Of a stretch of 50,899 bases of DNA, positions 20,586-27,011 are shown piece after piece. The notes below the pieces were generated by a model. The model had not been told where the DNA came from. It did not search any database and was given only the letters and a program-made list of their open reading frames with translations. The position numbers and the translations under genes are program-made. The DNA is taken from NCBI GenBank assembly GCA_903845115.1, contig CAIMWE010000084.1, positions 1 to 50,899 on the forward strand. Direction: 5' to 3'. The first letter of the stretch is position 1. The number at the start of each line of letters is the position of its first letter. This stretch comes from an uncultured Acidobacteriota bacterium (GTDB taxonomy: Bacteria; Acidobacteriota; Thermoanaerobaculia; UBA5066).

Positions 20586-21434
20586 ATGCAGGATCGATCG
20601 GACGCCAACTCGAAGGGAGGGCGGGACCATCCCGCCGAGGCGGGAGAGGAGACGGCGCGCCTCGTCGCCCTCATGGACCGGCTGCGGGCCGACTGCCCGT
20701 GGGACCGCAAGCAAACCTTCCGAAACCTCTCCGGGTACCTGCTGGAGGAGTGCTACGAGGTGCTCGAGGCGCTGGCCGAGGAGGACCTTCCGGCCCTCGA
20801 GGGGGAGCTCGGGGACCTCCTCTTCCAGGTCGTCTTCCTGGCCCGGCTCGGACAGGAGCAGGAAGCGTTCGACCTCGCCTCCGTCGCCCGGAGAATCCAC
20901 GCGAAGATGGTGTCGCGCCACCCTCACGTCTTCGGCGAGTCGGCGGTCCGGGACGCCGACGCGGTCCGGGTGCAATGGGAGGCCCTCAAGCGCAAGGAAC
21001 GAAACGACGAGGGGCGGGAGGGCTCGTCGCCGTTCGAAGGCGTCCCCCGCTCCCTGCCCGCCCTCCTGAAGGCGGTCCGGCTCACCTCCCGGGCCGCCGA
21101 CCTCGGGTTCGACTGGCACAAGGACACCGACGTCCTGGCCAAGCTGGACGAGGAGGTCGCGGAGTTCCGCGCCGCGCTCCTCGCCCCGGACGCCACGAAG
21201 GAGCACGTGGCGGACGAGATCGGAGACATCCTCTTCACCGTCGTGAACGTCGCCCGCCGCCACGGGATCGACCCCGAGGCAGCCCTCCAGGCGACCAACG
21301 CCAGGTTCCGTGCGCGGTTCGAGGGGGTCGCCGAGCGCCTCCACGCCGCCGGCCAGGAGGTCGCCGGCACTCCCCTCGAAGAGCTCGACCGCCTCTGGGA
21401 CGAGGTGAAGGCGGAGGAACGTAAGCCGGGCTAG
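20586..21434 (+). CDS. mazG: Nucleoside triphosphate pyrophosphohydrolase MazG
   Basis: 282 residues with two MazG domains. It hydrolyses (d)NTPs to NMP and PPi and so cleans the nucleotide pool. Domain 1 carries CPWDRKQTFRNLSGYL, EECYEVLEAL and ELGDLLFQVVF; domain 2 has the matching EEVAEFRAAL and DEIGDILFTVVN metal-binding motifs. FDWHKDTDVLAKLDEE lies between. ATG at 20586 is preceded by a strong gggaggg ribosome-binding sequence 4-5 bases away; the frame is open further upstream but crosses the divergent DUF1844 gene. Its last bases form a CTAG shared with the stop of the convergent yibQ-like gene. Confidence 0.93.
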   Translation: MQDRSDANSKGGRDHPAEAGEETARLVALMDRLRADCPWDRKQTFRNLSGYLLEECYEVLEALAEEDLPALEGELGDLLFQVVFLARLGQEQEAFDLASVARRIHAKMVSRHPHVFGESAVRDADAVRVQWEALKRKERNDEGREGSSPFEGVPRSLPALLKAVRLTSRAADLGFDWHKDTDVLAKLDEEVAEFRAALLAPDATKEHVADEIGDILFTVVNVARRHGIDPEAALQATNARFRARFEGVAERLHAAGQEVAGTPLEELDRLWDEVKAEERKPG

Positions 21435-22342
21435 TCGACCAGTTCGGAGACCTTCACGAGCCGGAGCCCCTGGCCTTCCAGCCGGGGGATCTCCCGGCCG
21501 AGGAAGTCGAGGGTCTCCGGGTGCGGGTGGGCGATCACGATGGCCGACCCTTTCCGGAGCGCCAGCTTCCTGGCCTTCCCCCACGCGGCGTCCATTCCCG
21601 CCTCTCCCTCCGCGTCGAGGAAGACGTCCCTCACGAGAAGGGGGGCGCCGAGGGATTTCGCCTCCTCCTCGGCGATCCGGGCAGAGGTCGTCCGGGAGTC
21701 GAGGAAGAAGAGGTGACGGTCGCGGACCGTCCGGAGGAGGGCGCGCACGACGCGGCGGTCCCCCATCGCGGCGGACCCCTCGTGGTTGTTGACGCCGATC
21801 GCGCCCGGCAGCCGGTCCAGGGCGCGGGTGGTCGCCTCCACGATCTGCCGGTCGGTGTCGGCGGAGGAGATCGCACTGGGCGGCGCTTCGCCCGACTCGG
21901 CCCGGAGCGGGAGGTGGACGAGGAGATCCCAGCCCTTCAGCCGGGCGAGGGCGGCGGCGCTCTCCGCCGCGGGAGCGTCCGGGAGGACCGCGAGGGCGAC
22001 GGGTCCCGGGAGCTGGCCGGAGCGGGTCACGGCCGATTCACCGTTTCCCATGTCGTCCAGGACCAGGGCGATCACGCCGCGCCCGCCGCTCGCCGGTTCG
22101 AAGTCGACCGGGGTCCCCGCTCCGTTCGACGCCGGAGCCGTCGGAACCGGTACGGCCTTCGTCGCGGCGGGTTTTGCCGGCGGGACCGGAACGGTCTCCC
22201 CGGCGGGCCTGCCGGTCCCCGGGCCGAGGAGGTAGACCGCCGCCCCGCCCAGCAGAGCCCCGACGAGCAGAAAGAGGAGGGCCCGGCCCATCCCGCCGCC
22301 GGACTTGCGCCCGGCCCCGCTCCTCCGGGAACCACCCTTCAC
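21431..22342 (-). CDS. Divergent polysaccharide deacetylase (YibQ family)
   Basis: 303 residues: a basic N-terminus and one membrane helix (about 19-40), a Pro/Ala-rich linker, then a deacetylase-like barrel (about 85-300) with VIALVLDDMG, LLVHLPLRAE, GVNNHEGSAAM, FFLDSRTTS and AIVIAHPHPETL. The YibQ family lies in the envC-ctpA-yibQ neighbourhood of many Gram-negatives and is thought to act on an envelope polysaccharide, though activity is little studied. The GTG start overlaps the S41 gene's stop as GTGA. Last gene of the operon. Confidence 0.83.
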   Translation of the reverse strand: MKGGSRRSGAGRKSGGGMGRALLFLLVGALLGGAAVYLLGPGTGRPAGETVPVPPAKPAATKAVPVPTAPASNGAGTPVDFEPASGGRGVIALVLDDMGNGESAVTRSGQLPGPVALAVLPDAPAAESAAALARLKGWDLLVHLPLRAESGEAPPSAISSADTDRQIVEATTRALDRLPGAIGVNNHEGSAAMGDRRVVRALLRTVRDRHLFFLDSRTTSARIAEEEAKSLGAPLLVRDVFLDAEGEAGMDAAWGKARKLALRKGSAIVIAHPHPETLDFLGREIPRLEGQGLRLVKVSELVD

Positions 22343-23592
22343 GAGGCGGTCTTGGACCTCGCGGCCATCTCCGCGAGCAGCTTCACCCCCCGCTGGAGGA
22401 TCAGGTCGGCGGGCACCGGCTGGCCCTCATCGGCCGGCAACGGATAGACGCGGTCGTCCGGCTCCAGCCCTTTCGGCGAGAGGGCGCGCCCGGCCGGGGT
22501 CCGGACCTTCGCCACGGAGAGCTTCAGGGCGCCGCCGCTGGAGAGGGGCACGACGTCGAGGACCGACCCGGCGCCGAACGTCGGCTCCCCGACGAGCCGG
22601 ACCTTCTTGTCGTTCTTGACGGCCGTCTTCTCCGATTCGCGGATCGCGGCCGCGAAGAGCTCGGCCGGCCCACCCGTCCCGCTGTCGATCAGGAGGACGA
22701 CCGGGCTCTCGTGAATCCGATCCCCCTCGGCCGCCGCCCATTTCTTCCCTTCCACCTTCCGGCCCTTCAGCTCGCCGATCGGTCCCGCGGGGACGAAGAG
22801 CCCGGCCGCCTTGGCGGCCTCGTCGTAGCTGCCGAACGCGTTCCCGCGCAGGTCGATGAGCAAGGGCTTCGTCCGGTCGAAGGGGGCGATCAGCGACCGG
22901 AGGGCCGCCGCGGTCCCCGGGGCGAAGTCGGGGATCCGGATCACTGTCTCCCCTGACGACCGCTCGGTCTTCGGTCCTTCCGGCGTCCAGGAATGGAGGG
23001 TCACGGTGAGGGTCCGGTGCCTCGGCTTCCCTTCCCGGACGACCAGGACCTCCACCTTCGCTCCGCTCTTCCCGGAAAGCCGCGACTGGGCCTCCCAGAT
23101 CGACATCTGTCGGACGCTCTTCCCGCCGATCTTCTCGATCAGGTCGTCGCTCTCGAGCCCGGCGGCCGCGGCCGGACCTCCCGCGACCGCCGAGACGACC
23201 AGCGGATAGCCCAGCCGCCGGGCCAGGATCACGCCCGGGTCGATCGCGTCCCCCTTCTCGCGGGCCGACTCCGCGGCCCGGAAGGCGGCCATCTGCTCGG
23301 CCGGGATGTACTCCGCAAACGGGTCCATCGCCTCGGTCATCCCGCTGAAGGCTCCCGCCAGGAGGGGTTTCATCTCCACCGGCTCGACGTAGTTCGACCG
23401 GACGAGCGTCAGCACCTCGGTGAAGAGTCCGAGCGGGCGGTAGAGGCCGTCTTTGGCCTCCTTCTCGTCTTTCACCGCCTTTCCCTTCGTCGCGGGCTCC
23501 CCTTCCTGCGCCCCGAGGCGCGGAAGGACCACGAAGAGGCTCGTGACGAGGGCGAGGGACGCGGCGACGCCGGAGAGACGGGACTTGCTCAC
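22339..23592 (-). CDS. S41 (C-terminal processing protease) family protein, catalytic residues missing
   Basis: 417 residues. Signal peptide (to about Ala28), helical N-domain (LYRPLGLFTEVLTLVRSNYVEPV), PDZ domain (about 115-200, LVVSAVAGGPAAAAGLESDDLIEKI) and S41 core. Where active members read SASASE the sequence is TGGPAE (306-311), so the nucleophile Ser is Gly308. The Lys of GEPTFGKG is Ala341 (GEPTFGAG). Both halves of the Ser/Lys dyad are therefore gone while the surrounding fold is conserved. It is probably a periplasmic pseudoprotease that binds peptides or partners through PDZ. It lies 60 bases downstream of envC and is coupled to yibQ. Confidence 0.85.
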   Translation of the reverse strand: MSKSRLSGVAASLALVTSLFVVLPRLGAQEGEPATKGKAVKDEKEAKDGLYRPLGLFTEVLTLVRSNYVEPVEMKPLLAGAFSGMTEAMDPFAEYIPAEQMAAFRAAESAREKGDAIDPGVILARRLGYPLVVSAVAGGPAAAAGLESDDLIEKIGGKSVRQMSIWEAQSRLSGKSGAKVEVLVVREGKPRHRTLTVTLHSWTPEGPKTERSSGETVIRIPDFAPGTAAALRSLIAPFDRTKPLLIDLRGNAFGSYDEAAKAAGLFVPAGPIGELKGRKVEGKKWAAAEGDRIHESPVVLLIDSGTGGPAELFAAAIRESEKTAVKNDKKVRLVGEPTFGAGSVLDVVPLSSGGALKLSVAKVRTPAGRALSPKGLEPDDRVYPLPADEGQPVPADLILQRGVKLLAEMAARSKTAS

Positions 23593-23652
23593 GACCGGAT
23601 GATACGCGGCAGGGTCCCCGATGGGTTCAAGCGGAATGGACGGAAATGGGGC

Positions 23653-24852
23653 TCAGCGGAGCCAGAGCTGCGGGTCGACCGAGGCCCGGGCGTCCCGGAC
23701 CTCGAAGTAGAGGCCCGCCACCTCGTCCTCGGGCGGCTGCCCGACGACCCCGACCCGGTCGCCCAGCGCCACCCGGTCCCCCTGCCGCACGGTGTTCGGC
23801 AGGAGGCGGCCGTAGAGCGTGAAGACCCCCTCGCCGTGGTCGAGGACCACCAGGTTCCCGTACCCCTTCAGCCACTGCGCGTAGACCACCTCGCCTCCGA
23901 AGATGGCCCGGGCCTCCGTCCCCGCCGGCACGTCGACGGTCCAGCCCGACGAGCGCAGAAACGTCTTGGGAAACTTGGGGTTGGCGATCCGCCCGAAGGG
24001 GACCGCGACCTTCCCGCGGGCGGGCCAGTCGAGCGCGCCCCGGTACTTCCGGATCGACGCCGCACCGGGACCCAGCGACCTCCCCTTCGACTCCAGCAAC
24101 GCCAGGAGAGCCTCCAGCCGGACCGTCTTGTTCTCCAGAGTCGCCACCTGGCTCCGCTCGTCCTCGGCCGCTCGCGAGACCCGGCGGAGCAGCTCGGCCT
24201 GCTCGGCGCGAGCCGCGGCCAGCTCGGCCTCCTTCGCCCTCGCCTCCCGGACCAGCTCCCGGAGATCGCCCCGCTTCTTCCCCAGCTCGTCCTCGCGCCC
24301 CCTCAGCGCCGCCAGCGCCTTCTCGTACGCCTCGATGAGGAGGGCGTCCTTGCGGGCCTGGTACGACAGGACCTGGAGGCTCCGGAGGAAGGAGTGGCCC
24401 GATTCGATGGTCGCGAGCGTCCGGAGGTACCCGAGCCGGCCCATCCGGTAGAGAGTCGAGATCCGGGCCGCCAGGTCGACCCGCAGCTCGCCGACCTTCC
24501 CCCTCGCCTCGTCGCGGAACCGGACGGCGTCCCTTTCGGCCTTTTCCGCGTCGGCCGTCCGAAGCTCCAGCTCACGGCGCTCGGCGGTGCGGATCTGGAG
24601 GTTCAGCTCGGCGCCCTCGAGGGAGTGCCGGACATCGGCCTCCCTCCTCCTCGTGGCCGCGTACCGGCTTTGCAGCGCCGAGAGCCTGAGCCTGAGGGAG
24701 GCCAGCTCCCGCCTCCGATCCTCCCCCGCGGCCGGCACGGGCGCGACGGAGGGGGCGGCGGCTGCCGGTTCCCTCGGCGCCGTCACCTCGTCCGGGCGGG
24801 CCGGGGGGGACGACGCCAGGAGGAGTGCGAGGACGAGGCGGGCGGGCTTCAG
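23653..24852 (-). CDS. EnvC-like murein hydrolase activator
   Basis: About 399 residues. Signal peptide (KPARLVLALLLASSPPA), a long coiled coil (about 45-270, rich in Arg/Glu/Leu), and a LytM/M23-type domain (about 290-399). The M23 zinc ligands are replaced: SSGWTVDVPAG has Trp for the first His, LYGRL stands for YAHL and LYFEV for HLHFEV. As in EnvC, the domain should activate amidases rather than cut peptidoglycan. A CTG start at 24852, overlapping the previous stop as CTGA, is preferred because the only nearby standard start (a GTG after the signal region) would remove the export signal. Confidence 0.83.
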   Translation of the reverse strand: MKPARLVLALLLASSPPARPDEVTAPREPAAAAPSVAPVPAAGEDRRRELASLRLRLSALQSRYAATRRREADVRHSLEGAELNLQIRTAERRELELRTADAEKAERDAVRFRDEARGKVGELRVDLAARISTLYRMGRLGYLRTLATIESGHSFLRSLQVLSYQARKDALLIEAYEKALAALRGREDELGKKRGDLRELVREARAKEAELAAARAEQAELLRRVSRAAEDERSQVATLENKTVRLEALLALLESKGRSLGPGAASIRKYRGALDWPARGKVAVPFGRIANPKFPKTFLRSSGWTVDVPAGTEARAIFGGEVVYAQWLKGYGNLVVLDHGEGVFTLYGRLLPNTVRQGDRVALGDRVGVVGQPPEDEVAGLYFEVRDARASVDPQLWLR

Positions 24853-27011
24853 AAGAGGGGCACCCCGTCGAGCTTCTCCGGAGGCTCCACGCCGAGCGCC
24901 TTGTAGAGCGTGGCCGGGACGTCCGCCATCACGGGAGCTCGCTCCTTCGGCAGAGGCCGGTTCGCGAAGAGGATCCCCGGGACGACCGACGGGTCGACGG
25001 AGCAGTGGTCGCCCGACCAGACCTGCCTGTTCTCCTCGAACATCTCCTTCGTGACGACTCCGAGGCTCGACTGCCACCCCACCCGGTACCCCTCGTCGTT
25101 CGTCACGAAGAGGTCGGGGATCACCGCGGCGTCGAACGAGCCGTAGATCTCCTCTCGCGTGTAGGCGTTCTTCACCGGCCGCTTCCCGGTGGCCGGGTCG
25201 ACCAGGGTCTTGATCCGCACCTGGATCTCGCTCCGCACCGCCTCGTACTCGGCGCCGGGCGCGACGATCCCCTGCCCCTCGCGCCCCCTCACGTTCAGGT
25301 AGATCTCGCCCAGGCCCATCGAGTAGGCCCTCGTCTTCGACCAGTCGACGTTCGGCCAGAACTCCCCCTGCCCGAAGAGCATCTCCAGGTCGGCCTGCTT
25401 TCCGCCCTCCGCCTTCAGGGTCATGTAGCCGTTCCGCACGAGCCAGGTGTTGTAGTTGACCGACCGCCGCCAGGTGGCGAAGCCGTGATCCGAGAGGACG
25501 ATCAGGAGGTCGCCCGGCGAGAGGTGGCCCATCGCGTCTCCCACGATGCCGTCCATCTCCCGGTACGACGCCTCCACCGACGGGCCGTAGAGGGCCGCCT
25601 TCCTCGCGTCGTAGGCCGGGTGCTCCGGGTCGAGGTACCGCCACATGACGTGCCCGACGCGGTCGGTGAACTCGAAGATCTGGACGAAGAGCCCGATCCC
25701 CTTCTCGTCCAGGAGGCCGTTCATCATCTTGCGGAACTGCCGGACCGTGAAGTTCACGTCCTCGAGGAAGACCGGCTCGTCGATGGTCTCCTCGCTCATC
25801 GACCAGGTGTCGATCGACCACCCCATCGTCTTGTAGAGGCCGAAGCGATTCGCGAGCGACGCCGAGAGCGACGCGGGGGCCGAGATCTTGACCGCCGGGG
25901 GGAGCTTCGCCGGGTGGAAGTGGATCGGCGAGAGGTAGAGCTTGACCTCGGGCTGGAGCGAGATCAGGTAGAAGCGGCCCATCCCCGTCAGCTTGACGAG
26001 GTCGTTGAACGGGAAGGTGAAGACGACCCAGTCCGACCACGAGCCCGGCTTCAGGGTGAGCGGGCCGGATCCCGCCGGCTCGACCGTCAGCCCCCCGCCG
26101 CCGGGCAGGACGGTCAGCGTCATCGGCACCTTCACGACGGGGGGAGTCTTGAAGAGCTTGTTGTACGGGCCGAACACCTCGGTCCTGATCGTCCCGACGT
26201 TCGACTCCAGGCGGACCAGCTCCACCGAGAACTCGTTCTTGTTCCGCGGCGCGAAGAACGGGTCGGAGGTGTAGTAGCTGGGAGTCCCGATCCGCCCCCT
26301 GACGTCGGGGACGCCGAGGCCGGAGAGGAGCTCGCCGTTCTCGTAGTCCTTCGCGGGGAACGTCACCGGCACGTGCATGACGATCGACTTGATCCCCTTC
26401 GCGCCGGCCGCTTCCCAGAACGGCGTCCCGAGGCGGTTGTTGGTGACCGTCGGGAGGGACTCCGGGAGGAGCCGCCCGACCTTCCACCCGCCCCACCCCG
26501 CGAAGGCCGCGACGACGAGGCCCGCGGCGAGCGAAGCCCGGCCGCCCTGCCGCGCGGCGAACCGGACGGCGAGGAAGGCGAGGAGGAACCCCAGGATCCC
26601 GGCGGTGGCGGCCCCGCCCGCGGGGTTCCCCGCGCCGAGGAGAAGCCGCCGCTTCCCCTCGGTGGCGATGGCGAACTCGGGCCGGTAGCTCTTCGGGTCG
26701 CGCTTCAGGAAGTCGAAGATCTGGGTTCGACCGGGCGAGAGCCCCGTCGAGAAGGTGGACCAGGAGACCGGCGTCTGGGCCGGGATGGTCGGCAGGAGGG
26801 GCCGGAACCCGCCCGAGGCAGCCAGCTTCGCGAGGTTCGGGAGCTTCCCCTCGCCGAGCATCCGCTCCACGATCTTGTGATCTGCCCCGTCGAACCCGAG
26901 GACGACCGTCTTTCCGGGCGGGACGCCGGCCGTGCCGCCCGTTGCCCCGAGGAGCCCCTGAGAAGCCGAGAGCGCGACGACGACGCTAAACTTCCATCCC
27001 TTGATCGGCAC
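24849..27011 (-). CDS. Alkaline-phosphatase-superfamily membrane phosphodiesterase-like protein
   Basis: 720 residues. N-terminal signal or anchor (about 6-25), then the superfamily's metal site (VVLGFDGADHKIVERML) and a nucleophile region (TPVSWSTFSTG). A hydrophobic hairpin follows at about 130-185, which is unusual inside the catalytic fold, and the rest of the enzyme carries MHVPVTFP, FTDRVGHVMWR, LIVLSDHGF and a late GDHCSVDP. Such proteins hydrolyse phosphodiesters or transfer phospho-head groups at the membrane surface; the substrate is unknown. It is the first gene of the operon with envC, S41 and yibQ. In many proteobacteria that position is held by gpmI, a distant member of the same superfamily. 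GTG start at 27011. Confidence 0.75.
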   Translation of the reverse strand: MPIKGWKFSVVVALSASQGLLGATGGTAGVPPGKTVVLGFDGADHKIVERMLGEGKLPNLAKLAASGGFRPLLPTIPAQTPVSWSTFSTGLSPGRTQIFDFLKRDPKSYRPEFAIATEGKRRLLLGAGNPAGGAATAGILGFLLAFLAVRFAARQGGRASLAAGLVVAAFAGWGGWKVGRLLPESLPTVTNNRLGTPFWEAAGAKGIKSIVMHVPVTFPAKDYENGELLSGLGVPDVRGRIGTPSYYTSDPFFAPRNKNEFSVELVRLESNVGTIRTEVFGPYNKLFKTPPVVKVPMTLTVLPGGGGLTVEPAGSGPLTLKPGSWSDWVVFTFPFNDLVKLTGMGRFYLISLQPEVKLYLSPIHFHPAKLPPAVKISAPASLSASLANRFGLYKTMGWSIDTWSMSEETIDEPVFLEDVNFTVRQFRKMMNGLLDEKGIGLFVQIFEFTDRVGHVMWRYLDPEHPAYDARKAALYGPSVEASYREMDGIVGDAMGHLSPGDLLIVLSDHGFATWRRSVNYNTWLVRNGYMTLKAEGGKQADLEMLFGQGEFWPNVDWSKTRAYSMGLGEIYLNVRGREGQGIVAPGAEYEAVRSEIQVRIKTLVDPATGKRPVKNAYTREEIYGSFDAAVIPDLFVTNDEGYRVGWQSSLGVVTKEMFEENRQVWSGDHCSVDPSVVPGILFANRPLPKERAPVMADVPATLYKALGVEPPEKLDGVPLF

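Follow-up and report, generated by a model that had tools for sequence, protein, structure and literature searches.

The S41/CtpA-like protein encoded between EnvC and YibQ in an uncultured Acidobacteriota bacterium lacks both catalytic residues of its family, and the loss is conserved across the phylum in this operonic type of gene. With a probability of roughly 60%, the protein is a conserved pseudoprotease whose role is to regulate peptidoglycan remodelling through binding. The gene lies in the window, by which is meant the whole stretch of 50,899 nucleotides that was analysed. The accepted view of CTP proteases is that they trim wall hydrolases or degrade them. Should the operonic copy persist without catalysis throughout a phylum, its binding function would be valuable in itself, and a binding-only S41 protein, if true, raises the question whether active CtpAs also play a non-proteolytic role at the wall. 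The interest lies in a loss that is both phylum-wide and operon-specific and of which no description was found in the open-access literature searched, where nothing on point was met for a bacterial or an Acidobacteriota S41 pseudoprotease. Across Acidobacteriota, the operonic-type protein is probably mislabelled when annotated as 'S41 family peptidase'.

Fold and active site of the operonic S41 protein

The features of the locus are collected in Table 1. In profile searches the window protein matched Peptidase_S41 (PF03572, E 1.5e-25) and PDZ, and its nearest solved structure by sequence is Pseudomonas aeruginosa CtpA (PaCtpA, PA5134), with about 30% identity. The original prediction had assumed that the PDZ and core fold are kept, and this was borne out by an AlphaFold2 model with a confident CtpA fold (pLDDT 88.8, pTM 0.85) that gave Z-scores of 34.9 to HpCtpA, the best match among solved CtpAs, and 34.6 to PaCtpA. 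Compared with the S41 C-terminal processing peptidases (TIGR00225 / MEROPS S41A), the core fold with PDZ is present and the catalytic Ser nucleophile and Lys base are absent, and the TIGR00225 score of 149.9 bits is under the curated NCBIfam cut-off of 218.6.

Table 1. Position of genes, domains and residues in the window, all numbered on the forward strand
Feature	Coordinates	Strand	Remarks
S41/CtpA-like pseudoprotease, 417 aa	22339..23592	minus	signal peptide, N-terminal dimerisation-type region, PDZ, protease core
PDZ domain of the S41 protein, residues about 114-204	22981..23253	minus	
Gly308 codon (GGG), nucleophile position, PaCtpA Ser302	22669..22671	minus	alignment to 7rpq/7rqh, IDSGTGGPAE
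Ala341 codon (GCC), general-base position, PaCtpA Lys327	22570..22572	minus	alignment to 7rpq/7rqh, TFGAGS
Leu345 codon, PaCtpA Gln331	22558..22560	minus	alignment
Phe92 codon, PaCtpA His84	23317..23319	minus	alignment
Phe253 codon, PaCtpA Gly246 (P1 pocket)	22834..22836	minus	alignment
Trp166 codon, PDZ helix	23095..23097	minus	clade-specific conservation
Family-specific insertion, S41 residues 318-331	about 22600-22640	minus	adjoins the former active site
EnvC, coiled coil and LytM without zinc ligands	23653..24852	minus	start uncertain; the CTG at 24852 overlaps with the stop of the gene upstream
Degenerate LytM/M23 domain of EnvC	23671..23949	minus	
YibQ/SddA, divergent polysaccharide deacetylase PF04748	21431..22342	minus	metal residues intact
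PF01663 phosphodiesterase, leading gene of the same-strand cluster	24849..27011	minus	position kept in many relatives
MazG-like nucleotide pyrophosphohydrolase	20699..21424	plus	by eye from the translation

The active site was read against PaCtpA structures 7rpq and 7rqh, the latter titled as the S302A mutant, and the replacement of both catalytic residues was confirmed, Gly308 standing for Ser302 and Ala341 for Lys327. The two helper residues and the glycine of the P1 pocket are replaced as well (Table 1). Activity of PaCtpA in vivo is abolished by S302A and likewise by K327A, and G246M reduces its proteolysis strongly, almost as severely as S302A/K327A (PMC11021448). With the dyad, the helpers and the P1 glycine all replaced, the window protein is therefore, judged by its sequence, very unlikely to be a protease; a total absence of activity is the expected consequence, a missing dyad in itself being no proof. 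An assembly error behind the lost residues was ruled out by an independent metagenome-assembled genome (MAG) of the same genus with the same residues. The insertion that adjoins the former active site comprises about 8 residues in the window protein and some 25-45 low-complexity residues in other genera of the family.

Spread, history and selection of the dyad loss

Across the phylum, both Ser and Lys were lost in 114 of 133 relatives, one of them in 10 and neither in 9, in a sample chosen mainly for similarity to operonic-type proteins, most of the genomes being MAGs. All nine intact relatives fall within one family (f8) of the window's class. In the window's own family the nucleophile position was Gly in 13/13 sampled members and the Lys position Ala (own genus) or Met, and the other two families of the order carry Gly and Met at these positions; a lone mutation was ruled out by these same-family relatives together with the phylum-wide sample. 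Class-wide, the nucleophile is nearly always replaced by Gly and the Lys position varies by lineage between Met, His, Tyr, Trp, Leu, Phe and Arg. The other Acidobacteriota classes show the same loss of the dyad with still other replacement residues. Approached inversely from EnvC genes, EnvC-S41 adjacency was found independently in 14 further families, and the dyad was absent in all 14 adjoining S41 proteins readable at both positions, none of them being intact.

Could the protein still be an enzyme, through catalytic residues that have migrated or through other chemistry? The Gly at the nucleophile position is strongly kept (79% of the 133 relatives), and the old active-site region may thus remain in use. 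Against this, different lineages have A, M, H, Y, W, L, R or other residues at the Lys position, and among the residues kept at 90% or more in the operonic-type clade there is no Ser, Lys, His or Cys that could form a replacement dyad; the other Ser/Lys pair that might have overturned the original prediction did not appear in this sequence conservation, and such an enzyme is very improbable.

When the catalytic columns were masked, all 119 sequences from the first sample grouped in one fully supported clade, apart from the canonical paralogues and PaCtpA. The operonic-type clade was again recovered in the tree of all 133 with a support of 0.9, which fell to 0.68 once outside sequences were added, making monophyly of the whole operonic-type set likely but not certain. 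Deep within this clade sit the intact f8 proteins, and the S41 states of the family (L066-L080) comprise S/K, A/K, G/K, S/R and G/R. On the tree, the f8 dyad was either regained or kept while at least ten losses took place in other lineages. When the canonical copies were included, a reversible model fitted better than a loss-only model (lnL -18.9 vs -23.8), but restricting the comparison to the operonic-type clade left the two models equal (lnL -12.20 vs -12.22). A further reading, in which a phylum-wide S41 pseudoprotease controls septal wall hydrolysis through binding alone and one family re-evolved Ser-Lys from a dead ancestor, is unlikely. The mixed states of f8 form a ready-made series in which the loss or regain of catalysis could be studied.

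The gene without catalytic residues is under purifying selection. Its dN/dS (NG86) was 0.11-0.23 in six of seven pairs, all close, and 0.34 in the most divergent pair, within the range of EnvC and under the YibQ value in every pair. A decaying gene without function would account for the loss of all catalytic residues, but the ratios in the close pairs are far below 1, the open frame is long in relatives and the gene is kept phylum-wide, leaving this explanation a negligible chance. The features of a pseudoenzyme are found together, namely catalytic residues lost, a fold predicted to be kept, purifying selection and long-term conservation. The PDZ domain has a signature of its own in Trp166, which is present in 98% of the class's operonic-type S41 proteins, in 71% of the clade and in 0% of canonical S41 proteins.

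The operon, its neighbours and the septal pathway

The minus-strand cluster consists of the genes for the PF01663 phosphodiesterase, EnvC, S41 and YibQ, with a gap of 60 nt between EnvC and S41 and a 4 nt overlap (GTGA) where the stop codon of S41 meets the start codon of YibQ. The downstream gene converges on YibQ from the other strand and the upstream gene diverges, and by these coordinates the four genes therefore constitute one apparent transcription unit. The convergent downstream gene appears to encode a MazG-like nucleotide pyrophosphohydrolase. The phosphodiesterase has apparent membrane helices inserted and heads the operon in many classes; in two f8 loci that were read, RNase III takes its place upstream of EnvC.

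EnvC gave a full-length match to 8tzk chain E (E 2.6e-30) and also matched E. coli EnvC 6tpi. It has the coiled coil and the LytM domain without zinc ligands of an EnvC amidase activator, with S, R and Y at the ligand positions, and the M23 zinc ligands are absent from the EnvC of class homologues too. This absence had been noticed correctly, but it is no novelty, as E. coli-type EnvC proteins also lack the ligands and the degeneracy is the norm of the family. YibQ, which lies outside the coordinates given with the original prediction, had been called degenerate as well, which was not upheld: PF04748 matched with 202 bits, the Asp-Asp-His-His metal site is present in full (D96, D97, H143, H187), and DDHH occupies these positions in 55/55 aligned sequences covering them. 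The four metal residues are needed in E. coli SddA (formerly YibQ), a deacetylase of denuded septal glycan strands (PMC12440217). The window YibQ is a predicted deacetylase, denuded-strand deacetylation being known for E. coli SddA only. The operon would accordingly be read as a regulator (EnvC), a dead protease (S41) and a predicted enzyme (YibQ/SddA), and not as the purely non-enzymatic unit first proposed.

FtsE and FtsX genes were found side by side in the window genome with NCBIfam models, although a Pfam search of the genome with FtsX_ECD gave no match, and amidase genes are present; the genome therefore has components of the septal hydrolysis pathway. This agrees with the regulatory or scaffolding complex at the septum that the original prediction had suggested, but a scaffold strictly bound to EnvC and SddA is improbable. 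In favour of such a scaffold, EnvC adjoins S41 in 66/81 loci of the class, the substitutions and the gene order being conserved together in related Acidobacteriota as predicted, and the EnvC-S41 order extends to many families of other classes. However, a dead S41 is kept in lineages in whose genomes profile searches gave only LytM-domain matches and no full-length EnvC, namely genus g18 within family f9 and many families besides (G028, G049, G055, families f25, f27, f37 and others). One- to three-contig assemblies are among these genomes. The role of the dead S41 can therefore not depend on EnvC everywhere. Overall, the observation of the original prediction is confirmed and its interpretation partly supported.

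Intact relatives and a role in binding

The canonical S41 paralogues of Acidobacteriota were intact in 22/22 sampled, with Ser, Lys, Gln and His (SKQH), and the loss is therefore specific to the operonic-type gene. The canonical paralogue of the window genome (G000:C4, L001) scores 302.0 bits with TIGR00225; it has family and fold in common with the dead copy but differs from it by its intact SKQH and its place outside the operon. The three genes and their order and strand are shared by the operons of the Alphaproteobacteria Sinorhizobium meliloti and Shinella, in which S41 is SKQH, and Qingshengfaniella has the order gpmI-EnvC-S41 with S41 intact, in a sample outside Acidobacteriota that is small and comes from a plasmid collection including some chromosome-like records. 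P. aeruginosa likewise shares the fold, the layout of PDZ and core and the EnvC-S41-YibQ/SddA order with the window, but its envC-ctpA-PA5135 operon encodes an active CtpA, a Ser302-Lys327 protease (PMC12569750), as opposed to the window protein with dyad and both helpers replaced.

From this comparison, the CtpA-type S41 of the envC-ctpA-yibQ(sddA) operon would have lost its dyad within Acidobacteriota, possibly close to the root of the phylum, with the ability to cut retained by the second, canonical paralogue elsewhere in the genome. The exported dead protein probably still oligomerises and binds protein ligands through PDZ and core without hydrolysis. Its most likely role would be that of a binding regulator at division that holds, shields or presents wall hydrolases and the proteins that regulate them, side by side with EnvC as amidase activator and YibQ/SddA as denuded-strand deacetylase. 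Such a regulator would descend from a protease with which other bacteria control their wall hydrolases through degradation.

The strongest competing explanation is that the dead copy would serve as a decoy for the canonical protease or as a brake on it, so that mixed oligomers, or competition for the adaptor and for substrate C-termini, would shield hydrolases, EnvC or SddA from proteolysis. A dead and an intact copy, or in family f8 two copies, occur together in the window genome and in the 20 other genomes in which the paralogue was read, and CtpA and Prc function through adaptors and oligomers (PMC11021448). The two copies of the window genome lie, however, in different genomic places and have strongly diverged (27% identity), and the decoy is rather unlikely. 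Prc is not mentioned in the main text of the SddA paper (PMC12440217).

For a binding regulator of wall remodelling, as preferred here, a likeness exists outside the bacteria. The interphotoreceptor retinoid-binding protein (IRBP) is a vertebrate protein whose S41-like fold serves binding. It differs from the window S41 in lineage, ligand and compartment, and its fold matched the window model with Z-scores of 14.6-16.9 at only 16-19% identity.
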